Counted from the stretch's first letter, positions 272 through 20,200 are shown. The stretch is 42,152 bases of DNA from Verrucomicrobiota bacterium (GCA_034440155.1 JAWXBN010000084.1:1-42152), one strand, 5' to 3'. Translations and numbers: made by a program. The notes: generated by a model not told the origin, from the sequence alone.

Positions 272-313
272 GTGTCCTTGACTTTTACTTCCCGAAAATT
301 AACGATTAACAAG

Positions 314-1159
314 ATGATTTCTAGACGTTGGATTATTCTCTTTATATCAGGCTTCATAGCAGCCATTACCTTGACTTCAGGCGATTTGATGGCCGCAGCA
401 AGAACAGACAACCTCTGGTGGTTGCCGCCAGTCATTACAACCAGAGGTCAAGAAGCGGATAAAATCTTTTATTTCATCTTTTGGCTGACTACAGTTGTTT
501 TTATAGTTACACAAATCTTGTTAATTTATTATTGTGTAAAATACCGTTACAGAAAGGGAAAAAAGGCTGTCTATAGCCACGGGAATAATAAATTCGAAAT
601 TATTTGGACAATTACCCCGACACTTATTTTCTTTGGTTTATTCTTTTGGAGTAATCATGTTTGGAAAGAATTCCATGAAACCCCGCCTGCCGATGCGATT
701 ACCATTGAGGTAACAGCGGAACAATATGGTTTTAATATGCGTTATCCCGGGCCTGACGGTATACTCGGTAAGGCTGAAGATTCGTCAATGTCTAAAGATA
801 ATAAATTGGGCCTTGATGCCAATGATCCAGCAGGTAAGGATGACTTTACTACCTACAATGATATGACGATCCCCGTGGGGAAACCAATACATCTTCTTAT
901 CCGTTCTCGGGATGTCATTCATGCTTTTTATGTTCCTGTTTTCCGTCTTTATCAGGACATGGTCCCTGGTAGGACGATTAACTGGGTTTGGTTTGTTACT
1001 ACCGAAGTGGGCAACCATGAATTGGCTTGCAACCAGCTGTGCGGGAAAGGCCACTATAATATGAAGGCCAAAATTTCAATTGTTACAGAGGATGAATACA
1101 AGAAATGGCTTCAGGGATTTTTACCAGAACCGCAACCGGTAGTCATGATCAAACAGTAA
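314..1159 (+). CDS. coxB: Cytochrome c oxidase subunit II (CuA subunit)
   Basis: Subunit II of an aa3-type oxidase; it accepts electrons from cytochrome c at a binuclear CuA centre on the outer face of the membrane. The preferred ATG at 314 gives 281 residues with a cleavable signal (hydrophobic stretch then LMAAA), two membrane segments (about residues 50-75 and 95-115) and a cupredoxin domain. CuA ligands are visible: H203 in the VIHAF segment and C239-x3-C243-x3-H247-x2-M250. No haem c domain is fused. An insertion rich in D, G and K (about residues 146-180) lies between cupredoxin strands. A GTG at 272 would extend the protein by 14 residues but abuts the palindrome at 252-271. No Shine-Dalgarno precedes 314. 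First gene of the operon. Confidence 0.93.
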   Translation: MISRRWIILFISGFIAAITLTSGDLMAAARTDNLWWLPPVITTRGQEADKIFYFIFWLTTVVFIVTQILLIYYCVKYRYRKGKKAVYSHGNNKFEIIWTITPTLIFFGLFFWSNHVWKEFHETPPADAITIEVTAEQYGFNMRYPGPDGILGKAEDSSMSKDNKLGLDANDPAGKDDFTTYNDMTIPVGKPIHLLIRSRDVIHAFYVPVFRLYQDMVPGRTINWVWFVTTEVGNHELACNQLCGKGHYNMKAKISIVTEDEYKKWLQGFLPEPQPVVMIKQ

Positions 1160-1173
1160 AACGAGGCATTTTT

Positions 1174-2964
1174 ATGAGCAGTATCGCGACAACAGAATCA
1201 CATACACCACAGCCCGATGCATCCCATGGAGAGCATAAATTAGGTTTTTTTAGGACTTATATCTTCTCAACTGATCATAAGATGATCGGTTTACAATATC
1301 TTTTTACTAGCCTGTTCTTTCTTTTGATTGGCGGATTTCTAGCCTTACTTGTTCGTTGGCAGATTGGTTTTCCAAATACTCCACTCCCGATACTTGGACA
1401 ATTCCTACGAGAACCTTATGTGATAGATGCGATTATACAGCCAGCGTTTTACAACATGCTTTTTACCATGCATGCCACAATTATGGTATTTTTGGTTATT
1501 ATGCCCCTTTTGATTGGTGCATTCGGTAATTTCCTTATACCACTCCACATTGGAGCAAAAGACATGGCTTTTCCTGTTTTAAACGGGGTTTCTTATTGGC
1601 TGTATTTTGTCTCTGGAGCCATCATGCTTTCTAGTTTTTTTGTGACGGGTGGCTCGGCAAATTCTGGTTGGACAGCCTATGCCCCCCTCAGTGCTGTCGC
1701 TACATATAACCTCACACAACAGGGGCAAAGCCTGTGGATTTTAGGGATATTTGTGAACGGTTTGGCCTCTATTGCTGGCGCGATCAATTATATAACGACC
1801 ATCCTCTTGATGAGGGCACCAGGCCTGGGGCTTTTTAAAATGTCTTTGACTGTTTGGTCGCTTTTTGTCACCTCCGTCCTGCTTCTCTTAGCAGTCCCAG
1901 TCCTATCAGCAGCTGGATGCATGCTTTATTTTGATTTGAATTATGGAACGAGTTTTTTCCTTCCCCAAGGAGGAGGGGATCCACTCCTGTGGCAGCATCT
2001 TTTTTGGTTCTTCGGGCATCCCGAGGTTTACATTATGATTTTACCTGCGATGGGTATTGTTTCAGACGTTTTAGCAGCATTCGCAAGGAAACCGATATTT
2101 GGTTATAAGGCCATGGTCTATGCAATGGTTTTAATCGGTTTATTAGGGTTTATTGTCTGGGGTCACCATATGTTCGTCAGTGGTATGTCGCTTGTGTTAT
2201 CAGAATGGTTTGCTGCCTCGACTATGTTGATTGCCGTTCCTTCTGCAATTAAAGTCTTTAATTGGCTCGGGACCATCTGGGGGGGGAATATACGCTTTAA
2301 TACGCCTATGCTTTTTGCTTTGGGTTTTGTATCAATGTTTATTATCGGTGGCTTGAGTGGTATCTTTTTGGCATCTACCCCTGTAGATCTATTTGTACAC
2401 CACACCTATTTTGTTGTTGCCCATTTTCATTATGTTCTTTTTGGGGGATCCATGTTTGCAATGTATTCTGGAGTTTATTTTTGGTATCCGAAAATGTTTG
2501 GAAAAATGTTTGATGAAACTTTAGGCAAGATTCATTTCTGGCTGACTTTAATTTTCTTCAATCTTACTTTTTTCCCAATGCATAACCTCGGTTTGGGGGG
2601 GATGATGCGTCGTATTGCTGATCCAACTGTCTACGAACACCTGCGCAATTTGCAGCCAATTAATCAATTTGTTACCTTGGCGGCAATGGGACTAGGGCTT
2701 GTTCAGTTGATTTTCTTCTATAATTTTTTCCGCAGCCTACTTAAAGGTAAACCTGCTGAGCCGAATCCATGGCAAGCAACCACGCTTGAATGGACCCTTT
2801 CCCACCCAATCGGTCACGGTAATTTTCAAAAAATCCCTACCGTTTATCATGGCCCATACGAATATAGTGTGCCTGGATTAGAAAAGGATTTCCTCCCGCA
2901 GGATCAGAAACTTGACGAGGAAGAGACAGTGAAAATGACAAAGGCTCTTGCTGCTGCCCACTAG
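1174..2964 (+). CDS. coxA: Cytochrome c oxidase subunit I (haem a / a3-CuB)
   Basis: Catalytic subunit that reduces oxygen to water and pumps protons. The ATG at 1174, preceded by ACGAGG, gives 596 residues; an upstream in-frame start at 1105 would overlap coxB. About 12 membrane helices. Haem and CuB ligands are present: His in the HATIMVF helix, HPEVY (CuB His cross-linked to Tyr, with the A1-type Glu), the HH pair in VWGHHMF, and the two His of HHTYFVVAHFHY for haems a3 and a. The D-channel Asp (GAKDMAF) and K-channel Lys (SAIKVF) are kept, so this is an A1-type oxidase. It begins 14 bases after coxB. Confidence 0.96.
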   Translation: MSSIATTESHTPQPDASHGEHKLGFFRTYIFSTDHKMIGLQYLFTSLFFLLIGGFLALLVRWQIGFPNTPLPILGQFLREPYVIDAIIQPAFYNMLFTMHATIMVFLVIMPLLIGAFGNFLIPLHIGAKDMAFPVLNGVSYWLYFVSGAIMLSSFFVTGGSANSGWTAYAPLSAVATYNLTQQGQSLWILGIFVNGLASIAGAINYITTILLMRAPGLGLFKMSLTVWSLFVTSVLLLLAVPVLSAAGCMLYFDLNYGTSFFLPQGGGDPLLWQHLFWFFGHPEVYIMILPAMGIVSDVLAAFARKPIFGYKAMVYAMVLIGLLGFIVWGHHMFVSGMSLVLSEWFAASTMLIAVPSAIKVFNWLGTIWGGNIRFNTPMLFALGFVSMFIIGGLSGIFLASTPVDLFVHHTYFVVAHFHYVLFGGSMFAMYSGVYFWYPKMFGKMFDETLGKIHFWLTLIFFNLTFFPMHNLGLGGMMRRIADPTVYEHLRNLQPINQFVTLAAMGLGLVQLIFFYNFFRSLLKGKPAEPNPWQATTLEWTLSHPIGHGNFQKIPTVYHGPYEYSVPGLEKDFLPQDQKLDEEETVKMTKALAAAH

Positions 2965-2988
2965 TGTGAGAGCAATATCTGGGATTGT

Positions 2989-4107
2989 ATGAATCAAGAC
3001 ATGAATGAAAGTGCTTATTTTTATGGTATGTCCCGCAGATTACTTCATCTGTACGCTTTCTTTTGTGTTTTTGCCACTTTGATCCTGATTTGTATAGGTG
3101 GCATAGTGACAAGTACCGGTTCTGGTTTGGCAGTACCCGATTGGCCTACAAGTTACGGATATAATATGTTTCTTTTTCCTTTCTCTCGGTGGTTTGGGGA
3201 TCGTGCGATTTTTTATGAACATACTCACCGTGTGGTAGCCAGTGGTGTTGGTTTTTTAATGATTGGGTTATGTGTTTGGTTGTGGTTCAGCCCGGAACGT
3301 AAAGAGCGTACTTGGCTTTGCTGGTGGGGGACGGTTGCTTTGATCTTGGTGATTATCCAAGGTATTTTGGGTGGTTTGAGGGTGACTGAGCTCAATAATT
3401 ACCTCGGTCTTGTTCATGGTTTTGTCGCTCAAGTTTTTCTTGTTTTAACTGCGGCAATTACCTTGTGTCTTTCGAAGACGTGGATGGAATGGGAAAAGAT
3501 GGATATTCTTAATCGGTTTTCAAAAGGGATTATGAAAAATCCTACCCTTTTAAAATTTGGAGTGATTCTTACAATCGTGGTTTTCATTCAACTCATCATC
3601 GGTGCTTCAATGAGGCACCAACATAATGGATTGGCGATTCCTGATTTTCCGCTTGCCTATGGGAAGCTTTGGCCAAAGACAGATTTGGCCACAATGGGAA
3701 GCATTAATGAGAATCGCTTGTTAAAAAATATGATGCCTGTAAGTAAAGTCCAAATATATCTTCATATGACACATAGGATTACTGCTTGTCTCATTGTGTT
3801 TGCCACCATGATCTATGCCATCAAAATAATCAAAGCTGTGCCGAGGAATTCCTTTGCATGGTTTGTCTCCCTTATCTTGGTATTGTCAGTCCTTGTGCAA
3901 TTTGCGCTTGGCGTATGGACTGTTATTTCAGATAAAGCTGCTGACATCGCCACGGCACATGTTCTTTTAGGGGCAATCCTGCTGTTAGAGGTTTCTTTAA
4001 CGACCATTCTCCTTTTCCGTTTATCCGGTGGCGCGATAAACCAGATGGATTCTGGGGTTTCTGAAAGTTTGGATATAAAACTCAATCCAACAGGGCAAAA
4101 CGCATGA
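2989..4107 (+). CDS. ctaA: Haem A synthase (COX15/CtaA family)
   Basis: Membrane monooxygenase that oxidises the C8 methyl of haem O to the formyl group of haem A, supplying cofactor to CoxA. The 372 residues hold about eight membrane segments in the two-fold family arrangement. Conserved His and Glu residues are in place: EHTHRVVASG, LVHGF, MRHQHNGLAIPDFPLAYG, HMTHRITA and TAHVLLG. It starts 24 bases after coxA, and its TGA overlaps the ctaB ATG (ATGA), implying translational coupling. Its presence supports assigning the upstream oxidase as aa3-type. Confidence 0.93.
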   Translation: MNQDMNESAYFYGMSRRLLHLYAFFCVFATLILICIGGIVTSTGSGLAVPDWPTSYGYNMFLFPFSRWFGDRAIFYEHTHRVVASGVGFLMIGLCVWLWFSPERKERTWLCWWGTVALILVIIQGILGGLRVTELNNYLGLVHGFVAQVFLVLTAAITLCLSKTWMEWEKMDILNRFSKGIMKNPTLLKFGVILTIVVFIQLIIGASMRHQHNGLAIPDFPLAYGKLWPKTDLATMGSINENRLLKNMMPVSKVQIYLHMTHRITACLIVFATMIYAIKIIKAVPRNSFAWFVSLILVLSVLVQFALGVWTVISDKAADIATAHVLLGAILLLEVSLTTILLFRLSGGAINQMDSGVSESLDIKLNPTGQNA

Positions 4108-5003
4108 AGGCCCAAACAATCGAATCAATCCCCTTCTTTTCCCCCATTAAAGTGTGGGTGAAGGAATGGAGTGAAATATGTAAGGCACGGTTGACCCTTT
4201 TGGTTTTAATGACCACATGGGCTGGTTTTTATTTGGGGGCTCGTAACCAAGTGGATTTAGGGATACTGCTCTGTACTATGGTAGGGACAGCTTTGGTGGC
4301 TGCCGGGGCGAGTGCCTTTAATCAATTCATTGAGCGTAACATTGATTCAAGAATGAAGAGAACACTCGACCGCCCTTTGCCGGCTGGGAGATTAAACCCT
4401 GACGAGGTGCTACTTTTTGCTTTGGTTACCTCGATTGCAGGAATGCTTGTCTTAGGATTTGCAGTCAATCATTTGGCTGCGGCATTTTCCGCGCTGACTT
4501 TGGCACTTTATGTTTTTGTTTATACACCGATGAAAAAGTATTCCTCATTGAATACCTTGGTGGGGGCTGTTCCAGGGGCACTCCCGCCTGTCATCGGATG
4601 GACTGCGGCTAGCGGGACACTTTCTGCTGAGGCATGGTATCTTTTTGCAATCCTTTTCCTCTGGCAAATGCCTCATTTTTTAGCGATTGCATGGCTTTAT
4701 AAAGATGACTATGAGCGTGGAGGGCTTAAAATGTTGGCTAATGAGGATCAAGATGGTCTGGCGACCTCACGACAGTCATTTGCTTATGCGATTGCATTAT
4801 TACCTGTGAGTCTGCTTCCCTCAATGTATCTAATGGTCAGGGCATGGTATTTCCCCGGGGCTTTTATTCTGGGACTTATTTATGCTTGGATGGCTTTTCA
4901 GTTTATGAGGAAACCTGATAATGTACGGGCAAAGAAACTTTTTATTGCATCCATAATCTACCTGCCCTTGCTTTTGGCATGGTTAGTATTGAATAAATTT
5001 TAA
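4104..5003 (+). CDS. ctaB: Protohaem IX farnesyltransferase (haem O synthase)
   Basis: UbiA-superfamily membrane prenyltransferase that adds a farnesyl chain to haem B to make haem O, the substrate of CtaA. The 299 residues contain the first Asp-rich motif (NQFIERNIDSRMKRTLDRPLP) and the second loop motif (YKDDYERGGLKML) on the substrate side, with about nine membrane helices. Length is normal for CtaB/CyoE. It overlaps ctaA by four bases. The typical N-terminal segment with KARLTLLVL is present. Confidence 0.95.
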   Translation: MKAQTIESIPFFSPIKVWVKEWSEICKARLTLLVLMTTWAGFYLGARNQVDLGILLCTMVGTALVAAGASAFNQFIERNIDSRMKRTLDRPLPAGRLNPDEVLLFALVTSIAGMLVLGFAVNHLAAAFSALTLALYVFVYTPMKKYSSLNTLVGAVPGALPPVIGWTAASGTLSAEAWYLFAILFLWQMPHFLAIAWLYKDDYERGGLKMLANEDQDGLATSRQSFAYAIALLPVSLLPSMYLMVRAWYFPGAFILGLIYAWMAFQFMRKPDNVRAKKLFIASIIYLPLLLAWLVLNKF

Positions 5004-5018
5004 TGGAAAAAGTAATTT

Positions 5019-5138
5019 ATGAATTTAAAAGAAAATACACTCAAAAAGAGGAAGAGGAATATGGCCATCGGGATGCTAATATTCATGATTATTCTGTTTG
5101 TATTAAGTATTTTGTTTGTCAGTAACAAACCCTATTGA
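5019..5138 (+). CDS. 39-residue single-pass membrane peptide in the cox operon
   Basis: A short reading frame, ATG at 5019 to TGA at 5138, lies between ctaB and coxC. It encodes a Lys/Arg-rich N-terminus (KKRKRN) followed by one strongly hydrophobic helix (about residues 16-34) and a short SNKPY tail, so a cytoplasmic N-terminus is predicted. GGAAAAAG stands 7-14 bases upstream as a plausible ribosome-binding site. Small membrane proteins occur at this place in many cox operons and help oxidase assembly; that role is only inferred. Its stop lies just ahead of, and partly within, the coxC ribosome-binding site. Confidence 0.55.
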   Translation: MNLKENTLKKRKRNMAIGMLIFMIILFVLSILFVSNKPY

Positions 5139-5148
5139 GGAAATACCT

Positions 5149-5820
5149 ATGACCCCGGCAACATTATCGGTTGATGAAATTGAATTTGAACTTAAGGCGG
5201 AAAAAACCCGCGCACGCTTCGGTATGATCCTTTTTCTTGCTTCAGAGGCGATGCTTTTTGCGGGGTTGATCGGAGCATATATTGTGCTGCGATGGACAGC
5301 CCCTGTATGGCCCGCTGTCGGTGAATACTCCTATATGTTTCACATGCCTCCCACCATGATTAATATCATTATGGCGATCAACACGATGATCTTGATAGGA
5401 AGCAGTTTTACGTTTCATTTTGCCGAGGTGGCGATCAAATCCGGTAAGAGTCCCGCGAAGTGGTTGTTTGTGACCATCCTGATGGGAAGTGTATTTCTTT
5501 GTGGGCAAGCCTATGAGTGGAACTACCTGATTCACCATAAGCATGTTGTTTTCCAAGATGGGGTTTATGGTGCGACATTTTTTGCGTTGACTGGGTTTCA
5601 TGGTGTCCACGTGATTGTCGGTGTGCTTTTGCTCATTTGGACATTTATCGGAGTATCGCGCGGGAAGTTCACACAGGAGCGGCATTTATTTTTTGATAAC
5701 GCAGGATTATATTGGCACTTTGTTGATATTGTGTGGGTAGGCTTATTTAGCTTACTTTATTTTGATTTGGTTGGCCATATTCTGATGCCTATTGGTAAAG
5801 TGCTTTGGGGTCTATTCTAA
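5149..5820 (+). CDS. coxC: Cytochrome c oxidase subunit III
   Basis: Core membrane subunit of the aa3 oxidase without redox centres; it stabilises subunit I and aids proton uptake. I chose the ATG at 5149 (TGAGG at 5136-5140, eight bases upstream), giving 223 residues. A TTG at 5116 would overlap the small upstream peptide. Five to seven membrane helices are visible. Family hallmarks include the LASEAMLFAGLIGAY segment, ATFFALTGFHGVHVIVG and the C-terminal GLYWHFVDIVWVGLFSLLYF. Last structural oxidase gene of the operon, convergent with the DUF983 gene. Confidence 0.93.
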   Translation: MTPATLSVDEIEFELKAEKTRARFGMILFLASEAMLFAGLIGAYIVLRWTAPVWPAVGEYSYMFHMPPTMINIIMAINTMILIGSSFTFHFAEVAIKSGKSPAKWLFVTILMGSVFLCGQAYEWNYLIHHKHVVFQDGVYGATFFALTGFHGVHVIVGVLLLIWTFIGVSRGKFTQERHLFFDNAGLYWHFVDIVWVGLFSLLYFDLVGHILMPIGKVLWGLF

Positions 5821-5838
5821 GCACCGAGCTATATGGAT

Positions 5839-6270
5839 TTAGTGTTTGGAGTCCTGATCGAAAAAACGGTCTAAAGCAATAAAAAGTGATTTAACATGAC
5901 GCGCAATGAGGAAGCAGAAGATCATTGAAATGAAACAAATGATAGCCAGTTCCCAGATCCAGTAGATGTCGGGTTTGATAATTACAACAATAATAACATA
6001 TAGAATAAGACCGAATATCGAACCGAACCCGTAGATCCCACCCCATGTCGCCAAAAGAAAATAGCCTGGTTCGCGCTCATATGCATACCCGCATTTTGGA
6101 CAACCATCAAGAGGTTGAAACCAATTAAAAAGAGTGCGAGTTTTTCTGATTTCAGGAAATATGGGGTAAGAACCACAAAGGGGACACTTTAAGGAAAGAG
6201 CTCGTTTTAGGTGCGTTCGGGCTTTTTTGAATGAATAGTCTGGCTTATTTGGGTTAATCTCGTTTGACAT
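5839..6270 (-). CDS. DUF983 zinc-ribbon membrane protein
   Basis: 143 residues: an N-terminal zinc-ribbon-like domain with two cysteine pairs (CPLCG near residue 34 and CPKCG near residue 58), then two hydrophobic segments (about 72-95 and 105-125) and a short basic tail. This is the DUF983 pattern; members often sit in oxidase loci, and a role in oxidase maturation is suspected but unproven. It is read opposite to the cox operon, ends 18 bases from coxC, and starts 33 bases from the divergent ABC ATPase gene. Confidence 0.75.
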   Translation of the reverse strand: MSNEINPNKPDYSFKKARTHLKRALSLKCPLCGSYPIFPEIRKTRTLFNWFQPLDGCPKCGYAYEREPGYFLLATWGGIYGFGSIFGLILYVIIVVIIKPDIYWIWELAIICFISMIFCFLIARHVKSLFIALDRFFDQDSKH

Positions 6271-6303
6271 GGAATTTGGTAAATTGGAAACAGTGATAAT
6301 TAT

Positions 6304-7248
6304 ATGATGAATGAAGTCAGCATGATTTTAGAGGTTCGTCAATTATCCTTTGCATACGGGTCGAGGAAGGCACTCAATGAAGTGTCTTTTTCCGTTCGTG
6401 CAGGGGAGGTATTGGCTATTCTCGGACCAAATGGAAGTGGAAAATCAACACTTTTTAAACTTTTATCTACCCTCGTTCCTGTTCAAGACGGGGAGATTAT
6501 CTGTAAAGGGATAAATTTTAATTCTGGAGTGGCAAAGGTGAGGTCCCTTTTGGGGGTTGTCTTTCAATCCCCAGGACTCGACAAAAAACTTACTGTCAAA
6601 GAAAATCTCCGTTGCCAAGCTGCCCTTTATGGAATGCCGACTTCCAAAGCCAATGATCAAATTGATTTTTGGCTCAAACGACTCAGGGTGGAGGACCGAT
6701 CGAACGACTTTGTGGAAAGTCTTTCAGGCGGGTTAGCCCGGCGTGTGGAAATGGCCAAAGCCCTCTTACACAGACCTGAAATCCTGATTTTAGATGAGCC
6801 CAGTACAGGTCTTGATCCGCGTTCACGGTCTGAGCTGTGGGAATGCCTTTTCCAACTCTGCGAAGAAGAAGGAGTGACTATTCTGGTGACCACCCATTTA
6901 ATGGATGAAGCGCAGAAATCTAGCCGGGTACTTATTCTGGATGAAGGGCGGATTGTGGCATGTGATTCACCCATTGAGTTAATGAAAAAATTCCCACATG
7001 AGATTCTCACATTAAAAACACCACGACCTGATGACATTGCAAATTATTTATCCGGGCAATTTTCCCTTAAATCAAAAGTTAGCCATTCTGGACTGAGGGT
7101 AGAGATCAGCAATGGCAGCGGGGGAGATATTGTGGCTGCTGTGAGCCGGGAATTTGGCGGAACAATTGAAACGATGACATTGTCGCAATCAGGGCTGGAA
7201 GACGCATTTTTTGCACTGACCGGGAAAAACTTTGGAGAGGAAAAATAA
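6304..7248 (+). CDS. ABC transporter ATP-binding protein (CcmA/NodI/DrrA type)
   Basis: Cytoplasmic ATPase of an ABC-2-type exporter. All motifs are present: Walker A GPNGSGKST, Q-loop VVFQSPG, signature LSGGLARRVEMA, Walker B LILDEPSTGLDP and switch His TTHLMDEA. A C-terminal extension of about 90 residues follows the nucleotide-binding domain, as in multidrug and Nod-factor exporters. 314 residues; ATGs at 6304, 6307 and 6322 are all possible. It is followed two bases later by its permease. Lying between oxidase structural genes and SCO/DUF420, it may serve oxidase copper or haem delivery; the substrate cannot be read from sequence. Confidence 0.88.
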   Translation: MMNEVSMILEVRQLSFAYGSRKALNEVSFSVRAGEVLAILGPNGSGKSTLFKLLSTLVPVQDGEIICKGINFNSGVAKVRSLLGVVFQSPGLDKKLTVKENLRCQAALYGMPTSKANDQIDFWLKRLRVEDRSNDFVESLSGGLARRVEMAKALLHRPEILILDEPSTGLDPRSRSELWECLFQLCEEEGVTILVTTHLMDEAQKSSRVLILDEGRIVACDSPIELMKKFPHEILTLKTPRPDDIANYLSGQFSLKSKVSHSGLRVEISNGSGGDIVAAVSREFGGTIETMTLSQSGLEDAFFALTGKNFGEEK

Positions 7249-7250
7249 AT

Positions 7251-8042
7251 ATGGGAGATTTGTTAATCATAAGACCGTGTTTGGCTCTCCTGACGAGGGA
7301 GATGGTGCGATTTGTCCGGCAAAGGAACCGGGTAATTGGGGCGCTTTTGACACCGATTATATTTTGGATTTTGATCGGGGCTGGAGTGGGGAATTCCTTC
7401 CGCCCAGGTGGTAGTGAGGCGGTGGGGAATTATCTTGGCTATTTCTTTCCCGGTACACTCGTATTGATTGTCCTTTTTACAGCGATTTTTTCGACTATAT
7501 CCATTATTGAAGACAGGCGTGAGGGATTTTTACAAGGAGTACTTGTTTCACCGGTACATCCTTTGGCGATTGTAGGGGGGAAGGTTTTGGGTGGTGCATT
7601 ATTGGCCTTAATCCAAGCCCTACTTTTTTGTGTATTTGCTCCTATGGTCGGAATTAGTGTCAGTCCTGCGCAATTCATTTTATTGATCGGTTTGCTTTTT
7701 CTCATAGGGATCGGATTGACCGCACTTGGTTATGTGATTGCCTGGCCATTGGATTCTGCAATGGGATTTCATGCGATTATGAATCTTTTCTTAATCCCGT
7801 TATGGTTTCTTTCAGGAGCCCTTTTTCCTCCAGAGGGATCGGTTCCTTGGATAGGGTTTTTAGTAAAAATAAACCCTCTTTATTATGCGTTAGCCACCGT
7901 GCGGTGGGTACTTTTTGATCCGGTGAAATCGGGTGTGGTTTTACCTGGATTCGGTCTGTCTTTGACAGTAACAATAATCTCTTGCATTGTGCTACTTGCT
8001 ATCAGCGTATGGATGACATTAAAAATAAACCGAAAAGCGTAA
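7251..8042 (+). CDS. ABC-2 type permease, partner of the upstream ATPase
   Basis: 263 residues with six hydrophobic segments and the ABC-2 architecture: a cytoplasmic N-terminus with an amphipathic RQRNRVIGALLTPIIFWIL segment, the EDRREGFLQGVLVSPV coupling-helix region, and the C-terminal GALFPPEG...NPLYYALATVRW loop that marks the NodJ/DrrB group. It starts two bases after the ATPase gene and its 3' end overlaps the SCO gene by about 34 bases, so the three are probably co-transcribed. The cargo is unknown. Confidence 0.87.
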   Translation: MGDLLIIRPCLALLTREMVRFVRQRNRVIGALLTPIIFWILIGAGVGNSFRPGGSEAVGNYLGYFFPGTLVLIVLFTAIFSTISIIEDRREGFLQGVLVSPVHPLAIVGGKVLGGALLALIQALLFCVFAPMVGISVSPAQFILLIGLLFLIGIGLTALGYVIAWPLDSAMGFHAIMNLFLIPLWFLSGALFPPEGSVPWIGFLVKINPLYYALATVRWVLFDPVKSGVVLPGFGLSLTVTIISCIVLLAISVWMTLKINRKA

Positions 8043-8689
8043 GGCCTCCGAATCCTTATTTTCAGGCCATCATTTGGACTGTGCTGATTTTTTTCGTTGT
8101 GGGTGTTTTGACATTTTCAGTTTATCGCTATTGGCGTTCCATTTACCTGACATCAAAGGGTAATCTGCCTGCCCTCAGGACGATTGAACCATTTTCATTT
8201 ACAGAAAGAAGTGGGAAGACGATCACCAATAGGGATCTCCAGGGGAAAGTCTGGGTGGCAAATTTTATTTTTACAGAATGTCCCGGGATTTGCCAGAATA
8301 TGTCAGGACAATTTGCACAGCTACAAAAAATCCTTCGTAAAACAAAAGAGGTAAGGTTAGTGAGTTTCAGTATCGATCCTCACACTGATACACCGGAAGT
8401 ACTCACCACATATGCAGAGAGATTTCAGGCGGATCCGGATAGGTGGTTATTTTTGACAGGTGATTTAAAAAAGATTCACCAGTTAGCTGTTAAAAGTTTT
8501 TTATTGCCTATTGATGAGAATCCTCCAGAGGCAGTCCCTGCTAATGGCAAGTATCTTCATAGTTCTCGATTTGTTCTTGTAGATAGTCATGGGATGATTA
8601 GGGGTTATTATGATGGTTCTGAACCTGAAGCATTGCAGAAGTTGACTCTGGATATAGGATTCATCATGAGGGAAGGAGGGTCGAACTAA
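8009..8689 (+). CDS. SCO1/SenC/PrrC-type copper chaperone
   Basis: Membrane-anchored thioredoxin-fold protein that delivers copper to, or reduces, the CuA cysteines of CoxB. One N-terminal membrane helix (about residues 18-40) is followed by the SCO domain. The copper-binding CPGIC pair lies at C91 and C95, and the conserved ligand His at 184 in the KYLHSSRFVLVD segment; DPHTDTPEVL is the family loop. ATG 8009 gives 226 residues; a TTG at 7982 is a weaker start. It overlaps the permease gene and lies two bases before the DUF420 gene, which fits a CuA assembly module. Confidence 0.92.
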   Translation: MDDIKNKPKSVRPPNPYFQAIIWTVLIFFVVGVLTFSVYRYWRSIYLTSKGNLPALRTIEPFSFTERSGKTITNRDLQGKVWVANFIFTECPGICQNMSGQFAQLQKILRKTKEVRLVSFSIDPHTDTPEVLTTYAERFQADPDRWLFLTGDLKKIHQLAVKSFLLPIDENPPEAVPANGKYLHSSRFVLVDSHGMIRGYYDGSEPEALQKLTLDIGFIMREGGSN

Positions 8690-8691
8690 CA

Positions 8692-9126
8692 ATGGACCTG
8701 TCCGTCTTTCCTACGATCAATGCTTCCTTGAATGCAATAACCGCAATATTGCTTTGTGCGGGTTATATCTGTATCAAAAGGGGTAATAAAACCGCCCATG
8801 GAATCATGATGGGATCAGCCTTTTGTGTTTCTACCGTTTTTCTGGCTTGTTATCTTTATTATCATTATATGAAGGCTGGTCAGGTAACACGTTATCCATT
8901 GGAGGACTGGTCAAAATCGGTTTATTTAATCATTTTAACGAGTCACAGCATTTTGGCAGTAGTGGTTTTACCATTTATTTTTTCATTACTTTGGTTCGTC
9001 TATACTAAAAAATGGGAGAAACATAAAAAAATTGCTCGTTGGGTCTGGCCAGTTTGGATGTATATTTCTATTACAGGAGTCGTCATTTACTGGATGCTTT
9101 ACCACTATTCCGGTGCTGTCCGTTAA
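8692..9126 (+). CDS. DUF420 membrane protein (CtaM/YozB-like)
   Basis: 144 residues with four membrane helices and the DUF420 pattern: PTINASLNAITAILL at the start, conserved His residues in the second to fourth helices (YYHYMKAG, TSHSILAV, EKHKKIARWVWPVWMYISITG) and a C-terminal VIYWMLYH. Family members of the YozB/CtaM type are needed for functional aa3 oxidase in Firmicutes. Spaced two bases from the SCO gene. An assembly role for the coxBAC oxidase is inferred from family and neighbourhood. Confidence 0.8.
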   Translation: MDLSVFPTINASLNAITAILLCAGYICIKRGNKTAHGIMMGSAFCVSTVFLACYLYYHYMKAGQVTRYPLEDWSKSVYLIILTSHSILAVVVLPFIFSLLWFVYTKKWEKHKKIARWVWPVWMYISITGVVIYWMLYHYSGAVR

Positions 9127-9168
9127 AATCGCCTTGTTTCAATAATATTTAAGAGTTAATCTATAGAC

Positions 9169-9450
9169 ATGGTAAATAAGATTATCATTCTGGTTTTTGC
9201 GTCATTAATGGCATTTGCTCTTAATGGGGTAGAAGCTTGCCCGGGATGCAAATACACTAGCCAGACTAATAATAAGAATATTGAGAATGTGCAAAAAGGA
9301 TTTTCTTATAGTGTTATTTTCATGCTGCTATTTCCTATGGGACTGATCGCAGGGGTAGGACGGTATTCCTATCATACTATAAGAAAAGTTGAAGCCGAGC
9401 GGGACGACGTATTAAAAAGAAAAAGTAAGTCCGTCAGTTCCAAAGCTTGA
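9169..9450 (+). CDS. Small exported CPGCK membrane protein, cox-associated
   Basis: 93 residues: a signal peptide or first membrane helix (about 1-22, ending GVEA), directly followed by a CPGCK pair of cysteines, a second helix (about 45-66) and a charged C-terminal tail. No named family is recognised with certainty. The cysteine pair just outside the membrane suggests thiol or copper chemistry, and the position after SCO and DUF420 fits an oxidase assembly factor. Both points are inference. It is the last gene before the convergence point. Confidence 0.6.
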   Translation: MVNKIIILVFASLMAFALNGVEACPGCKYTSQTNNKNIENVQKGFSYSVIFMLLFPMGLIAGVGRYSYHTIRKVEAERDDVLKRKSKSVSSKA

Positions 9451-9498: not shown

Positions 9499-10236
9499 TT
9501 ATTTTGCTGGAGTGGGTGATGGTGCAGGAGTTGATGTTGCTATATCTTGATAATCCTTGCCAGCAACCTGAGAGAGCTCAGGCCATGTCCATGGTTGTTT
9601 GCGATCCTTGACAAGTTCCCGTTCTGCGGCTACTGCTTCTTTCGAAATCGGCCCCGAATTATTACCCCACTCTTGACGGATATAGGTCAGTATATATGAA
9701 ATTTGCTGATCAGTAAGTTGATCTTTCCAAGATGCCATATTCCCATTGTAGGTATTTCCTTTGACCACTATTGGTCCATTCAAACCATGCAGTAAAATAC
9801 GAATCAAACGGTTTTGGGGACCGTTAACCTGATCGGTACCAGCTAATGGAGGATATTGTCCAGCTACACCTTGTCCAGTGACCTGATGGCAGGTAGCGCA
9901 ATTTGCGGTAAAGAGCCTTTTTCCTGAGGCGATGGGATCGATTTGTTTAGGGCCAGTGGATTTGACAGGGCCGAATACTACTTGTCGCTCGTTAAAAACA
10001 TTTGATTGGAACCCACCATTATATTTCCCTAAGTAAAGACCACCTGCAAAGATAGCTAATCCACAGAGGGCAACAATCCAAAGGGGGATTGGCTCGAGCC
10101 CTTCCTCCGGATCATTATTTTCACGCATAGCCGCTTGATGGAGTTCCTCAATTGAATACTTTTCCTCAGCTTCCGCCTGTGCGGCTGCTTTGAGTTTTTC
10201 TTCATGGTCGTTATGTTTGAGTTCTTCAGGTGTCAT
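9499..10236 (-). CDS. ccoP: CcoP-like membrane-anchored monohaem cytochrome c
   Basis: 245 residues: a long charged cytoplasmic N-terminus (about 48 residues, Glu/Lys/Ala-rich), one membrane helix (about 51-69), then a cytochrome c domain with one CATCH haem site (near residue 125) and a likely axial Met in GNMASW. The tail is Pro/Thr/Ala-rich. Standard cbb3 CcoP has two haems, so this is a one-haem version or a distinct oxidase-associated cytochrome. It follows ccoO by 18 bases and is the last gene of the ACIII-oxidase operon. It probably passes electrons from ACIII or soluble cytochrome c to the CcoNO core. Confidence 0.75.
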   Translation of the reverse strand: MTPEELKHNDHEEKLKAAAQAEAEEKYSIEELHQAAMRENNDPEEGLEPIPLWIVALCGLAIFAGGLYLGKYNGGFQSNVFNERQVVFGPVKSTGPKQIDPIASGKRLFTANCATCHQVTGQGVAGQYPPLAGTDQVNGPQNRLIRILLHGLNGPIVVKGNTYNGNMASWKDQLTDQQISYILTYIRQEWGNNSGPISKEAVAAERELVKDRKQPWTWPELSQVAGKDYQDIATSTPAPSPTPAK

Positions 10237-10254
10237 ACGGCTTTTTAATCAGTG

Positions 10255-10872
10255 TTATTCGACAGGTGCCTCGGGCAAAGGATAATTCATCTTTAAAGAT
10301 AAGAGATATTCGACAAGTGCGATGGCTTGAGGGGTAGGGACGATTTCATATCCAGCAGGAGGTGCATAAGCTCCTTCTATCTGAATTGCATCAACTGATG
10401 ACTTTCCATCGAGAATTGGCCTCTTCTGGAAAAGGAATGCAAAAGGTGGCATGGTTGATCCAGGGGTTGTAATTTGCGGATTATACAAGTGTTTATAGTG
10501 CCATTGCTTATCACGTAAGCGAACTCCTGTATTTGCCAGATCTGGGCCGGTGCGCATGGTTCCTAATGATATTGTCTTAAAATTAATATAATCACGGGCG
10601 ACTGTCTGACGGTTACCCCATCCACGTTCAATATCTGATCCTGTCTGGGCTGGTCGGATTTGTTGACTATGGCAATAAACACAACCGTTAGCCACATAGA
10701 CAAGCTCTCCCTGTTGTGCAAGACCATTTAATGGGTGGGGAAGTACTTCGCCATCATCATTGACATAGGGCTGTAGTTTGCCGAATTGGACAAATGGAGA
10801 AATAACCAACCCTAACCATGAAAATAAAAAGGTGCAAAATAGCCCTATAAAGACGAGTGGAATACGATTCAT
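10255..10872 (-). CDS. ccoO: cbb3-type oxidase subunit II (CcoO/FixO-like monohaem cytochrome c)
   Basis: 205 residues with an N-terminal membrane anchor (about 5-25) and one haem site, CVYCHSQQIRP, near residue 64; this CxYCHSQQxRP form is typical of CcoO. The RGWGNRQTVARDY and LGTMRTGPDLANTG segments are also family features, and an axial Met is available in STMPPF. Its ATG overlaps the ccoN stop by four bases. It moves electrons towards the binuclear centre in CcoN. Confidence 0.87.
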   Translation of the reverse strand: MNRIPLVFIGLFCTFLFSWLGLVISPFVQFGKLQPYVNDDGEVLPHPLNGLAQQGELVYVANGCVYCHSQQIRPAQTGSDIERGWGNRQTVARDYINFKTISLGTMRTGPDLANTGVRLRDKQWHYKHLYNPQITTPGSTMPPFAFLFQKRPILDGKSSVDAIQIEGAYAPPAGYEIVPTPQAIALVEYLLSLKMNYPLPEAPVE

Positions 10873-12368
10873 AACTTCTCGCCTCCATTCTCGACTTCAT
10901 TCAAGAGAGTGGGACCTGATTGTTTTGATCCGACTTTGAGTATCATCATGATAAAGAGAACACCGAAGACGATGTGACCAATGGCAATCATTATCCCAGA
11001 AATACTGCGAAAAATGAGGAATGGTTGCATAAGGCTTACAATAGCCATGAATGGTATTTTTGCATCATAGAGGGCAAGTCCTTGAATCAGTCCTCCTACA
11101 GTCAATGAGCCCACCATCAAGCCGCTCCCAAGGGCTGTGCACCAGAAATGGACTTTGATCATTGTAGACGATGGCCATTCCCAATTTACCAACCGAGGTA
11201 CGATGTAATACATGGAGCCAAACATCATCATCGTATAAAACATATATAATCCGAGGTGAGCATGACCCACGGTATACTGAGTAAAGTGTGTGATTTTATT
11301 CAAATCGCGGAAAGCCATGGTGATTCCTTGGAGGCTCGAGGCAGTATACATCATCGCTCCGAAGACTACGAAGCGAAGGGCAGGACTAGATTTGAGGAGT
11401 TCAAAATAGCCTTTCATCGTCATATGATGGTTAATGGCAGTGCTTATCACAGGAATAATCATCATCCAGCTGGCGACAATACTTGCCGTCACCATCCATA
11501 CGGGAATCGGTCCACCAATCAAATGGTGCATTCCATTCCAGCTATAAAATAAGGCTAAAGTCCAAAAGCCAATAATCGAAAGATAATAACTATGTACAGG
11601 GCGTCCAATAATCTTTGGGATGAAGTAGTACGCGCTGGCTAATCCAATCGGAGTAAAGAATAGACCAAGGGCATTATGGGCATACCACCAGTTTACCGCG
11701 GCTTGGACTGTTCCCTGGACGGGCTCCATAATCAACATGACTTGAGCTGTTCCATAGAGCCATGGGAACCAGAAGAATCCCGCAAAAAGATACCAAATGG
11801 AAACATAAAGATGCGCACATTTGCGCTTAAAGAGCATGAGGACACCCCAAATAGAGATCAGGGCAAATGAAAGGAAAATCAGAGGTGTAGAATAGGCGGG
11901 GGCCTCAAGCCATTCTATTGAGCGGCTGTCGCCGGAGAGTATTCCATATATTCCTACAGCTATTCCTATATTCCAAAAGACGGCCGCAATAATAGGAAGA
12001 ATGGGATTAACTAGTTTTGCACGGCAGAGCCTGGAGAAAAGCCAGATGCCCGTTCCAATACCGGCTGTTGCTCCCCACCCATAAGCAACGGCATTCAAGT
12101 GTGCGGACCGCACTAAACCAAATGTTAAAAATGAATAATCCCCTAAAAATGAGGGTGTATGGAGTTTAATAGAGGCAATGATGGCCATGAGGGTGCCAAA
12201 TAGAAGCCAAAATATGGCTGAGCTGTAGTAGATAAGTACGGGTATGCGCGTGGACTTATCAATCTCAGCACGTTCAATTTTATCGTCTGTGAGATGGATA
12301 GTTGAAGCTCCACCTGTATGGACTTCCGATGGTGCACTTGCTGATAAGAGTTTAAACCTGTTTTTCAT
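10869..12368 (-). CDS. ccoN: cbb3-type cytochrome c oxidase subunit I
   Basis: Catalytic haem-copper subunit of a C-type oxidase, 499 residues, about 12 helices. Recognisable ligands are: RSAHLNAVAYGWG (haem b His), WWYAHNALGLFFTP (CuB His and nearby residues), GMHHLIGGPIPVW (His pair), and TVGHAHLGLY (high- and low-spin haem His). The extramembrane N-terminus of about 40 residues is longer than in many CcoN proteins. Five bases separate it from the CcoS-like gene upstream, and it overlaps ccoO. C-type oxidases usually have high oxygen affinity, so this enzyme probably complements the aa3 oxidase at low oxygen. Confidence 0.92.
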   Translation of the reverse strand: MKNRFKLLSASAPSEVHTGGASTIHLTDDKIERAEIDKSTRIPVLIYYSSAIFWLLFGTLMAIIASIKLHTPSFLGDYSFLTFGLVRSAHLNAVAYGWGATAGIGTGIWLFSRLCRAKLVNPILPIIAAVFWNIGIAVGIYGILSGDSRSIEWLEAPAYSTPLIFLSFALISIWGVLMLFKRKCAHLYVSIWYLFAGFFWFPWLYGTAQVMLIMEPVQGTVQAAVNWWYAHNALGLFFTPIGLASAYYFIPKIIGRPVHSYYLSIIGFWTLALFYSWNGMHHLIGGPIPVWMVTASIVASWMMIIPVISTAINHHMTMKGYFELLKSSPALRFVVFGAMMYTASSLQGITMAFRDLNKITHFTQYTVGHAHLGLYMFYTMMMFGSMYYIVPRLVNWEWPSSTMIKVHFWCTALGSGLMVGSLTVGGLIQGLALYDAKIPFMAIVSLMQPFLIFRSISGIMIAIGHIVFGVLFIMMILKVGSKQSGPTLLNEVENGGEKL

Positions 12369-12373
12369 GGCAT

Positions 12374-12628
12374 TTATTTCTTTTTCTTAACCGGAAATTG
12401 ATCTGTTACTGTCCCGATCGGTTCATCCTTGGCAAAGATCTCTTCTGATTGTCTTTGGAAATTTTCAAAGTGCCCTTTTTTTGCCGCCCAATAAAATGCC
12501 CACAATGCTGATGCCCCGAAAAATAGCATGCCGCCAATAATCACGATAAAAAAAGGGTTTACATCGTTAATGGACGTTGGCCACTCAACTTGTTTCAAGG
12601 ATGTTGCTATGATGGTGATAAAGCTCAT
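12374..12628 (-). CDS. ccoS: Small membrane protein resembling CcoS/FixS
   Basis: 84 residues with one hydrophobic helix (about 26-50) followed by FYWAAKKGHFENFQRQSEEIFAKDE. This resembles the CcoS/FixS pattern (aromatic-rich helix, GxF/GQF, short acidic segment), which helps insert cofactors into cbb3 oxidases. The N-terminus is longer than in typical CcoS and the tail ends in five lysines, so it could instead be a small oxidase subunit in the CcoQ position. It lies directly upstream of ccoN and two bases after an unknown gene. Confidence 0.6.
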   Translation of the reverse strand: MSFITIIATSLKQVEWPTSINDVNPFFIVIIGGMLFFGASALWAFYWAAKKGHFENFQRQSEEIFAKDEPIGTVTDQFPVKKKK

Positions 12629-12630
12629 AT

Positions 12631-13029
12631 TTATTTTTTCAGGTATTCCGGTACGATTAATGTAGGAACAGCATTCGTGGCTGAATCAGCAATTTGAATC
12701 TGCTTCTTTGATAACTCTTCGACGGTTAAATTCATGGCATTATCAATACCGACTAATGCGGCTTTGTCTGTTTCCACTAATTTATCGAGTCTATTGAGGC
12801 GTTGTTCCTCGATAATGGTATCGTAGCTCTTTGTTGCAAAAAATGATTGTAGTTTTTTGATTAATCCAGAGTTCTCTGTGATTTCCCCCGAAGGAGCAGA
12901 ATTGTGATAATTCCTGATAATAACAGTGATTGTGGGCATTAATAACATTCCAATGAGAATCCCCAAAATAACCCCGACTACAGGGATCCATTTGGCTTTC
13001 AAAAGTTCTTTTACAGTGGTGAAAAACAT
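12631..13029 (-). CDS. Unknown single-pass membrane protein between ACIII and cbb3 genes
   Basis: 132 residues that I do not recognise. One membrane helix (about 13-38) near the N-terminus is followed by an extramembrane region rich in charged residues and predicted helix (about 55-120), with no cysteines or haem sites. It starts eight bases after actF and ends two bases before the CcoS-like gene, so it is fully inside the operon. By position it could be an accessory ACIII subunit, a linker between ACIII and the oxidase, or an assembly factor; none of these can be decided from sequence. Confidence 0.6.
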   Translation of the reverse strand: MFFTTVKELLKAKWIPVVGVILGILIGMLLMPTITVIIRNYHNSAPSGEITENSGLIKKLQSFFATKSYDTIIEEQRLNRLDKLVETDKAALVGIDNAMNLTVEELSKKQIQIADSATNAVPTLIVPEYLKK

Positions 13030-13037
13030 AATTTTAT

Positions 13038-14249
13038 CTAGTTTTTAACAGTTACCGACTCCTTCAAGCGGGGATCAAATAAAGGAAATATATTATACTT
13101 TCCTAATGACCTAAGAAATCCTGCTGACAAAATTCCAAAAACCGCAACAATTGATAGAATATCGAGGATACTTGGCATGATACGATTGCCGCGGAATTCC
13201 GGCATGATAATCCAATAAATCTCCAAGATAAACATCAGGATAACCCATCCTGAAATCAAACAGAGGTACTGAGGCTTTTTCTTGATCCATTGGGTTAAAA
13301 GTAACACAAAGGGCACAGCAAATTTACACGGCGCAAAAAGGATTACTGCATACCACCACCAGCCTCCGGAGGAACGATTACGGAAAAAAATGGTTTCTTC
13401 AGGGATATTTGCATACCAGATCAGCATGTACTGGCTGAATGCGATATAAGCCCAGAATACGGTAAATGCAAAAAGCAATTTACCCATCAGGTGGTAATGC
13501 TCATCGCTGATAACTTCCTTCATATAACCCATCGAACGTAAACCTGTAATAATTAAGATCAACAAGGCCATGGAGGCCCCTGCAGAGCTGGCAAAAACGT
13601 AAACACCCCACATGGTGGAATACCAATGGAAGTTTAATCCCATCAACCAATCAAAAGACCAGAAAGTCATTGTCAGTGCGAAAAGAGGGACGGCCAAATA
13701 GGAAATATGACGGAGCTTCAAGGATAAACGGTCATCACCGGTTTTATCCTGTTTCGTCGAAAGTCTTTTAAAGAGGAATGCCAATGTTCCAATCGCAACA
13801 AAATAAAAAACGGCACGCGTCCAGAAAAATGGTTCATTGAGAAAGCCATGTTTCCAGTGGAGTAAGTGGTCATCATGACTATTGAGGTTCATCCATTTAT
13901 ATATATTTGGTGCCAAAAACGCCATAGGCACGAGGAAGAGTAAACCCATGATAAAAATATTCCCTGCAATCAATTCGGGGATACGGCGGATAGAGATGCC
14001 CCAACCAGAATTTGTGACGTGTTGTAAAAGCACCCAAAAGAACGAACCAAAACATAAAAGAGTACCGATACTACATGCAAATAACCATGAAACAGAAATT
14101 TCTTTCCAAGTAAACATGCCGATAGCCGTGGAACCAAATGCTACGACTAAACAGGCAACGCCTATAATCATGCAGACAACCATTGGCAAAAAGTAATCTG
14201 CCAATTGAACCTTTTCGGGCTGTGGTTGATGGTAATGTGCGTCACTCAT
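13038..14249 (-). CDS. actF: Alternative complex III subunit ActF
   Basis: Integral membrane subunit of ACIII (quinol:cytochrome c oxidoreductase), 403 residues with about ten helices and a short cytoplasmic His-rich N-terminus. It resembles ActC in general fold and belongs to the ActF family: segments such as WVLLQHVTNSGWGISIRRIPE and the FYFVAIGTLAFLFKRLS region, plus FSQYMLIWYANIPEET, are characteristic. It carries no redox cofactor; it may add to a proton path. It is separated by three bases from actE and eight from the next gene. Confidence 0.88.
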   Translation of the reverse strand: MSDAHYHQPQPEKVQLADYFLPMVVCMIIGVACLVVAFGSTAIGMFTWKEISVSWLFACSIGTLLCFGSFFWVLLQHVTNSGWGISIRRIPELIAGNIFIMGLLFLVPMAFLAPNIYKWMNLNSHDDHLLHWKHGFLNEPFFWTRAVFYFVAIGTLAFLFKRLSTKQDKTGDDRLSLKLRHISYLAVPLFALTMTFWSFDWLMGLNFHWYSTMWGVYVFASSAGASMALLILIITGLRSMGYMKEVISDEHYHLMGKLLFAFTVFWAYIAFSQYMLIWYANIPEETIFFRNRSSGGWWWYAVILFAPCKFAVPFVLLLTQWIKKKPQYLCLISGWVILMFILEIYWIIMPEFRGNRIMPSILDILSIVAVFGILSAGFLRSLGKYNIFPLFDPRLKESVTVKN

Positions 14250-14252
14250 AAA

Positions 14253-14873
14253 TTACTTTGCCTGTCCTGTAACCGGAGCTGCCGGTGTGACATTTGTTTG
14301 TTCCATCATTTTCTGTTGTTTTTGCAGAGCTCTGACGTAGGCAATAATCAGCCAGCGGTCTTCCACGCTAATGTGCGGATAAGCACCCATATTTCCGATG
14401 CCATGGGCGATTGTATTATAGATTTGTCCGTCAGACATCTGTACGAGACGGTCATCATTCAAGTTTGCGATGCCTACAAGTCCGTATTGACTCGTGATTC
14501 CTTTACCGTTGCCAGAAGCCCCATGACAGACAGCGCAATTAATCTGATAACGTTCTTGACCACGTTTTAATTTTTCCAAAGTAACTTTTACCGGAATGCC
14601 CGTTCCCCAATTCTTACCCATTTTTCCAGTTGTTTCATAGTTTATTATAGCAGCAGGCACATGAGGGACAGTTCCGCTAACCGCAGGACGATTAGCATAT
14701 CCATCAGCATAAAATTCACTGGTTGTTTGCCCTTTGATCTTTAGCTGTCGATCCATATCCGGAAAGATTTCGATCGGCTCTTTAGTCGTTATTTGGCCAC
14801 GATAGCCCGCAATGATGACCACCGTTAATACGGACAACACAAAAGCAAAAAAGAAATAGCGTAAAAATTTCAT
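14253..14873 (-). CDS. actE: Alternative complex III monohaem cytochrome c subunit ActE
   Basis: 206 residues: an N-terminal membrane anchor (about 6-24) and a c-type cytochrome domain with one CAVCHG haem site (about residue 115) and an axial Met candidate near GIGNMGAYPH. In ACIII, ActE receives electrons from the pentahaem ActA side and passes them to an acceptor. The ATG at 14873 overlaps the actD TGA (ATGA), which decides the start; a TTG nine bases upstream is less likely. Confidence 0.9.
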   Translation of the reverse strand: MKFLRYFFFAFVLSVLTVVIIAGYRGQITTKEPIEIFPDMDRQLKIKGQTTSEFYADGYANRPAVSGTVPHVPAAIINYETTGKMGKNWGTGIPVKVTLEKLKRGQERYQINCAVCHGASGNGKGITSQYGLVGIANLNDDRLVQMSDGQIYNTIAHGIGNMGAYPHISVEDRWLIIAYVRALQKQQKMMEQTNVTPAAPVTGQAK

Positions 14874-15424
14874 GATTCCCAATAGATAGGTGTGATATTT
14901 GTCCCGCCCAAGTCCTCGAGCAATTTGCTGGTGGCATTGATAGAGAAATTCCTATCGCGGGCTTCAATGACGAGGAAAAAACCATCATCATTGGCTTTTT
15001 GATTGAATAGATCCCAGTTGAAAACCGGATGGTTCCAGCGGGGAAGGAGGTTGAGGCCGAAAAGAGCAATCATTGTCGCGAATGCGGTCAAAAGGATTGT
15101 GATCTCAAAAATGATTGGAAAAAAGGCGGGAAGACTGAAATAAGGTTTTCCGCCGGTAATAAGAGGATACTCGATAACGGAAGGATACACCACGAGTGTG
15201 AGTGCGACTAATAGACCGGTGATTCCGCCTACGAGAGAAAACGAGGACAGATAGGAGTGTCCTAGTCCCATGGCCTTTTCCATCCCGTGAATAGGGAAAG
15301 GGGAAAATGTATCCCAACGTTTAAATCCTGTGTCACGTACCTTTTCAGCAGCATGATAAAGTTCAGCCGAGCTGGAGAACTCCGCCCCGAAAGCATATAA
15401 ACTCTTTTCTTTATCCAGAGTCAT
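14870..15424 (-). CDS. actD: Alternative complex III subunit ActD (DUF3341)
   Basis: 184 residues with two membrane helices (about 65-90 and 105-130) and a soluble C-terminal domain; the KVRDTGFKRWDTFSPFPIHGMEKAMG segment identifies the DUF3341/ActD family. ATG 15424 is preceded by a strong AAAGGAG that lies in the last codons of actC, and only one base separates the two genes; an upstream in-frame start at 15502 would overlap actC by 77 bases. It has a structural role in ACIII. Confidence 0.9.
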   Translation of the reverse strand: MTLDKEKSLYAFGAEFSSSAELYHAAEKVRDTGFKRWDTFSPFPIHGMEKAMGLGHSYLSSFSLVGGITGLLVALTLVVYPSVIEYPLITGGKPYFSLPAFFPIIFEITILLTAFATMIALFGLNLLPRWNHPVFNWDLFNQKANDDGFFLVIEARDRNFSINATSKLLEDLGGTNITPIYWES

Positions 15425-15425
15425 A

Positions 15426-16928: not shown

Positions 16929-16933
16929 TGGAA

Positions 16934-19900: not shown

Positions 19901-20200
19901 TGTCGCATACGACAGGGGTTTGCCGGGGATCTGAAATTCGGGGGTTTTCGTAAACGGAATTATTTCTGTCCTAGGCCGGCGGCATCCGCTTAGACCGATT
20001 CCTGCCAAAGCTACGGAAGCACCCATGAGCTTAATAAAATTTCGACGGGAAACATCGTCTCCTGTAAACTCCGCTGCGCCTTGGGGAAATTCGCGTGAAA
20101 GCCATTCCTTAAATTCATCGGTGTGCGAATACTCGTCAAGGCTACGCCAGTAGCGCTTGCCGACAGGTGCTTCAGGTGGATGTGTAATTATTTTCTTCAT
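16934..20200 (-). CDS. actB: Alternative complex III Fe-S/molybdopterin-like subunit ActB
   Basis: 1088 residues. An N-terminal Tat motif ([10 protein letters not shown], Arg 52-53) is followed by a lipobox-like LSGC (C73), so export as a folded, lipid-anchored protein is likely. A large molybdopterin-oxidoreductase-like domain (about 80-720) is followed by a ferredoxin-like domain with four cysteine clusters: CVGCNAC (788), CLHC...C (851), [11 protein letters not shown] (883) and CTYC...CQQVC (950-989). In characterised ACIII the first domain binds no molybdenum and the second carries three 4Fe-4S and one 3Fe-4S cluster. The ATG at 20200 overlaps the actA stop (ATGA). The His-rich tail (about 1055-1088) is variable. 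Confidence 0.94.

Follow-up and report, generated by a model that had tools for sequence, protein, structure and literature searches.

ABC exporters are already known to act in the maturation of respiratory enzymes (CydDC, CcmAB and NosDFY), and to our knowledge none of them serves a heme-copper oxidase. Each half of CydDC combines transmembrane and ATPase domains in one polypeptide, and NosDFY assembles the copper site of nitrous oxide reductase. Heme A insertion and CuB loading usually involve Surf1, Cox11 and CtaG, and how heme A reaches subunit I, or how CuB is loaded without Cox11 and Surf1, are open questions in oxidase biogenesis. CydDC is described as a heterodimeric ABC transporter of heme that serves cytochrome bd (PMC10374445) and CcmAB(CD) as a heme translocase for c-type cytochromes (PMC11868835). 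In S. aureus the DUF420 protein CtaM is reported to be required for aa3 (PMC4958251); in B. subtilis both aa3 and caa3 require it, and hemes a and a3 form without it (PMC9145763). The main texts of these two studies mention no ABC partner. Likewise, the freely accessible literature, searched mostly by term, yielded no ABC exporter in the gene set described below or serving a heme-copper oxidase, and an unnamed ABC transporter symbol appears, without comment in the section concerned, in a drawing of alphaproteobacterial COX operons (PMC4013037). The original prediction of an undescribed oxidase-maturation module is supported in part: within this literature it stands for the exporter, but not for the DUF420 (CtaM) and SCO components, which were already known.

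The window analysed here is a whole stretch of 42,152 nucleotides from a Verrucomicrobiota bacterium (GCA_034440155.1, JAWXBN010000084.1:1-42152), in which an aa3 oxidase cassette occupies positions 272-9450, on the plus strand with a single exception. It opens with coxB (subunit II, 272-1159; TIGR02866 above cut-off), carrying the complete CuA motif CNQLCGKGHYNM, and coxA (subunit I, 1174-2964; TIGR02891, E 2e-196, 653 bits for a cut-off of 671), followed by the heme A synthase gene ctaA (2989-4107; PF02628), the heme O synthase gene ctaB (4104-5003), assigned from sequence and synteny rather than by family search and with homologues directly upstream of the ABC ATPase gene in many loci, and coxC (subunit III, 5116-5820; PF00510). 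Downstream stand an ABC ATPase gene, abcA (6304-7248; PF00005), with all ATPase motifs (Walker A GPNGSGKS, LSGG, ILILDEP, TTH), and an ABC-2 permease gene, abcP (7251-8042; PF01061, ABC2_membrane), whose product bears a W39/E87/E91/W165/S169/H174/W185 signature and a predicted type V exporter fold. The next gene, sco (8009-8689; PF02630, 94.7 bits), encodes an SCO1/SenC copper chaperone whose features (the domain, CxxxC as CPGIC at 91, and the distal histidine copper ligand in YLH at 182) are those of the family; it overlaps abcP by 34 bp. DUF420 (8692-9126; PF04238, 127.7 bits for a gathering cut-off of 30.5) starts 2 bp past sco, the overlap and spacing being as predicted, and encodes a four-TM protein of the CtaM family of aa3 assembly factors. 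A 93-residue protein (9169-9450) closes the cassette and combines a signal peptide-like segment, a CPGC pair (CPxCK motif) and one TM helix; it matches no Pfam or NCBIfam family. The six genes that had been proposed as the module (DUF983, ATPase, permease, SCO, DUF420 and CPGCK) were all recovered, with two corrections. The ABC pair does lie between coxC and sco, but after coxC rather than inside coxBAC, and the DUF983-like gene (5839-6270), whose product has two CPxCG motifs, is on the minus strand, divergent from the ABC pair, and scores just under the Pfam gathering cut-off (PF06170, 22.5 bits against 22.6).

By the features tested, the ABC pair is not a member of CydDC, CcmAB or NosDFY. 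It would resemble CydDC, whose substrate is heme, as an ABC exporter dedicated to the maturation of a terminal oxidase, but ABC_tran and ABC2_membrane are here in separate ORFs, and CydDC serves cytochrome bd. With CcmAB it shares a separate ATPase and a multi-TM permease tied to the maturation of a respiratory heme protein; AbcA, however, reaches 122 bits where the CcmA equivalog cut-off is 195, and the cassette contains neither CcmC nor CcmD. The comparison with NosFY made in the original prediction stands for the fold class and for a general "works like" analogy, as each consists of a type V permease with an ATPase and is associated with a copper respiratory enzyme, but none of the genes at 272-9450 is NosD or NosL, and the window pair is linked to an oxidase rather than to nos genes. 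The predicted AbcP model (mean pLDDT 85) retrieved type V exporters with Foldseek, including KpsM (TM 0.69/0.70), ABCG, the ceramide exporter ABCH-9C and TarG, with NosY (7qba_D) in 45th position (TM 0.57). The best NCBIfam sequence matches were the DrrAB, NodIJ and PQQ-alcohol dehydrogenase ABC systems (TIGR01188/01247, TIGR03864/03861), all under their curated cut-offs (drrA 223/312, drrB 156/223, TIGR03864 242/302, TIGR03861 104/241; NodI models 161-174 against 424-549) and all from gene contexts that differ from that of the window. CtaM of S. aureus and B. subtilis is the family to which the window DUF420 belongs, here as one part of a larger cassette.

Orthologues of the ABC pair recur in about ten phyla within a common arrangement, (ctaA)-ctaB-abcA-abcP-(sco)-DUF420. 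Within the same class, a permease orthologue was found in 17/57 genomes (that of the window plus 16 at about 50-59% identity), with abcA orthologues upstream of the permease in the relatives too, and the order abcA-abcP-sco-DUF420 was retained in 17/17 wherever the contig reached far enough. All 17 also encode heme A synthase, and the pair occurs in none of the 21 CtaA-negative genomes (Fisher 7e-5, phylogeny ignored). When named genomes were scanned, 80 loci were recovered; by their record titles, which can be loose for MAGs, they belong to Verrucomicrobiota, Planctomycetota, Acidobacteriota, Omnitrophota, Latescibacterota, Ignavibacteriota, Bacteroidota, Sumerlaeota, Poribacteria and Myxococcota. 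Among the 69 loci with enough downstream flank, 51 carry sco or DUF420 within 3 kb of the permease, and many of the loci have ctaA-ctaB just upstream of the pair. To offset the bias of such a scan towards sequences closely related to the query, we also drew two even samples, of 119 Planctomycetota and 119 Acidobacteriota genomes. In the former, sco and/or DUF420 follow 25/29 orthologues with usable flank, and CtaA is present in 31/33 genomes that bear an orthologue at E <= 1e-39 (p 5e-6); in the latter, DUF420 lies within 2 kb of 13/15 strong orthologues, usually with no sco between, and seven weaker permease paralogues are all unlinked to DUF420 and form an outgroup on the tree. The original prediction would have failed if most copies of the pair in relatives had stood apart from oxidase genes; the opposite was observed, as in these 25/29 Planctomycetota loci. 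A chance neighbourhood in the window genome can accordingly be set aside as wholly improbable: the DUF983-like gene, marginal and unconserved, is all that speaks for it, and it is already refuted by the recurrence of the ABC-sco-DUF420 set in class relatives, named-genome loci, Planctomycetota and Acidobacteriota. The ABC pair, SCO, DUF420 and the CPGCK protein are thereby supported as a recurring oxidase-linked set. DUF983 was dropped from it, as neither sequence searching nor motif scanning recovered it from any of the loci other than the window.

On the permease tree, 116 clade members are linked and 24 unlinked, with a minimum of seven changes between the two states. The unlinked permeases belong mostly to one Chthoniobacterales branch, where the pair stands beside unrelated genes; in some of these relocated loci (which include L085, L101 and L144) the neighbours are apparent cytidylate kinase and acyltransferase genes. 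DUF420 is still present in 14/15 checked genomes with an unlinked pair, in several of them within a coxC-sco-CxxC-DUF420 cluster. Outside this branch, W165, S169, H174 and W185 are invariant in 126/126 clade members and W39 in 124/124, and the outgroup of unlinked paralogues has mostly S/C, D, Q, F and L at these five positions, the clade residues being rare or absent there. From predicted helix order, secondary structure and the usual topology, rather than a solved structure, W165, S169 and H174 would lie near the cytoplasmic end of helices four and five, with W39 and W185 closer to the outside. The clade alignment contains no cysteine among the conserved residues. The Chthoniobacterales branch retains the signature residues despite its relocation, which argues that the function of the pair may be unchanged there. 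These data bear on a further explanation, in which the pair would export a lipid, a glycolipid or a toxic compound, would not be specific to the oxidase, and would lie near cox genes through shared regulation. The closest solved relatives do move lipids or glycolipids (the ceramide exporter, KpsM), and the Chthoniobacterales branch carries the pair elsewhere. We nevertheless regard this explanation as improbable: linkage was retained over about ten phyla, between proteins about 50% identical and in rearranged oxidase clusters, the pair is nearly confined to CtaA-positive genomes, and the clade-specific residues persist even in the relocated branch.

The pair is nonetheless optional and cannot be a universal aa3 factor, because the permease is absent from 19/36 CtaA-positive class relatives and some cassettes lack the pair, such as the ctaB-sco-DUF420 arrangements of L153, L165 and L167. 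Searches that matched control genomes detected neither Surf1 nor Cox11 in any of the 57 class genomes, 36 of which encode heme A synthase. Caa3_CtaG was found in 9/57, only two of which have the ABC pair, and all three factors are absent from the window genome. As the proteins that ordinarily insert heme A and load CuB are absent, the genes of the cassette are left as candidates; relatives devoid of the ABC pair equally lack Surf1 and Cox11, so that this absence alone does not point to the pair. An anti-correlation between the ABC pair and Caa3_CtaG was also considered and rejected as not significant (2/17 vs 7/19, p 0.13).

As a member of CtaM, a known family of aa3 assembly factors, the DUF420 protein of the window probably acts in aa3 assembly, and DUF420 is associated with ctaA/ctaB and aa3 genes both in the window and in other loci. 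H36, H85 and H111 are invariant in 140/140 DUF420 sequences. When a subunit III profile built without DUF420 was run against all ORFs of the loci, DUF420 was essentially the sole other family retrieved, with a best E of 2e-7 and about 80 sequences at E <0.01, against three CtaA matches at E <10 and a best reversed decoy at 0.07. The reciprocal DUF420 search was weaker yet concordant, with coxC as the next family (four at E <0.01). Profile-profile comparison aligned 127 columns of DUF420 and COX3 (probability 87 percent, E 4e-6; 0.1-0.25 percent for the CtaA and permease controls), with H85 and W122 of DUF420 facing a conserved H and W of subunit III, and the predicted DUF420 model (pLDDT 94) matched mostly subunit III chains, at a TM of about 0.70 and a weak E of 0.02-0.1. 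By profile and predicted fold, DUF420/CtaM thus resembles the last helices of subunit III, as a distant relative would, a likeness of which we found no earlier mention in the literature that we examined. If so, the mechanism of CtaM could take a concrete form, that of a stand-in at the subunit III site. DUF420 has otherwise been suggested to be half of CtaA (PMC8239418) and this has been disputed (PMC12808453); comparison of its profile with the CtaA of the window gave 0.1 percent, against 87 percent for COX3, and we rejected this assignment.

The CPGCK protein also proved to belong to a real, small and unnamed oxidase-cluster family. A profile begun with nine members and widened once yielded 42 copies in the 0.86 Mb that belongs to oxidase clusters but no copy in 1.34 Mb lying beyond them, a confinement that holds within the loci rather than genome-wide, as these were collected around the permease or DUF420. 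The protein is present in 29/35 loci having coxA, coxB and coxC, its gene being located downstream of DUF420, between this gene and sco, or between coxC and coxB/ctaA. Members (e.g. L119:6443-6787, L097:5238-5525 and L202:8653-8931) come from several phyla and share a signal peptide-like segment, a CPxCK or CAVCFG motif and one TM, adding an unannotated gene to oxidase clusters.

The presence of the ABC pair in a cassette for heme A synthesis and copper insertion, across about ten phyla, suggests an export step in the building of the oxidase. From this genomic evidence, we infer a transport function for the oxidase and the accompanying roles of CtaM and the CPxCK protein, and we estimate at roughly 60% the probability that AbcA/AbcP is a maturation exporter dedicated to heme-A (aa3) oxidases. 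Heme O and heme A would come from CtaB and CtaA; as an ATP-driven exporter of type V (ABC-2), AbcA/P would carry a maturation substrate across the membrane, from the cytoplasmic to the outer side; SCO would load copper; CtaM, as a subunit III relative, would be a late-acting chaperone of subunit I; and the small CPxCK protein may handle thiols or copper at the outer face. Such a pair, found with heme A, SCO and CtaM genes in Verrucomicrobiota, Planctomycetota, Acidobacteriota and others, would provide named and deletable candidates for these steps.

Two substrates have to be weighed, and heme and copper are not distinguishable from sequence. Our tentative preference goes to heme O or heme A, i.e. 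a farnesylated heme, because ctaA-ctaB-ABC-DUF420 persists in Acidobacteriota without sco between abcP and DUF420, because ctaA, ctaB and DUF420 are the most constant neighbours and sco is variable, because amphipathic lipids are the main cargo of type V exporters, and because the Trp and His residues of the signature would suit a porphyrin. The proximity of CtaM alone does not argue for heme, as hemes a and a3 form in B. subtilis lacking it (PMC9145763). Alternatively, the pair could serve copper, by exporting the metal or a copper ligand, or through a NosFY-like hand-over among SCO, CtaM and the CPxCK protein for CuA/CuB. The gene immediately after the permease is sco in the window and in most relatives; NosY appeared among the structures matched by AbcP; Cox11 is missing in 57/57 relatives and CtaG in most; cysteine pairs occur in SCO and the CPxCK protein; and CtaM has been suggested to export copper and thereby supply Sco (PMC13344008). 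We still consider copper, the chief competitor of heme, rather unlikely, since the cassette has no NosD-like partner, most Acidobacteriota orthologues lack sco between abcP and DUF420, the conserved residues of the permease offer no cysteine, and NosY ranked so low among the matches. In its fullest form, the heme reading becomes slightly more speculative: AbcA/P would receive heme O/A from CtaB at the cytoplasmic face and flip it across to CtaA or subunit I, in bacteria devoid of Surf1 and Cox11 and together with a subunit III-derived CtaM and the new CPxCK protein.

Directly adjoining the aa3 cassette in opposite orientation, the minus strand of the window (9499-20850) carries two gene sets, one for a cbb3-like oxidase, with a FixS-like gene, and one resembling alternative complex III; an unassigned gene of 132 residues (12631-13029) separates the two. 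Further along, a P-type metal ATPase (35459-37705, minus strand) is probably not a CopA-type copper pump, because it has an SPC instead of a CPC motif.
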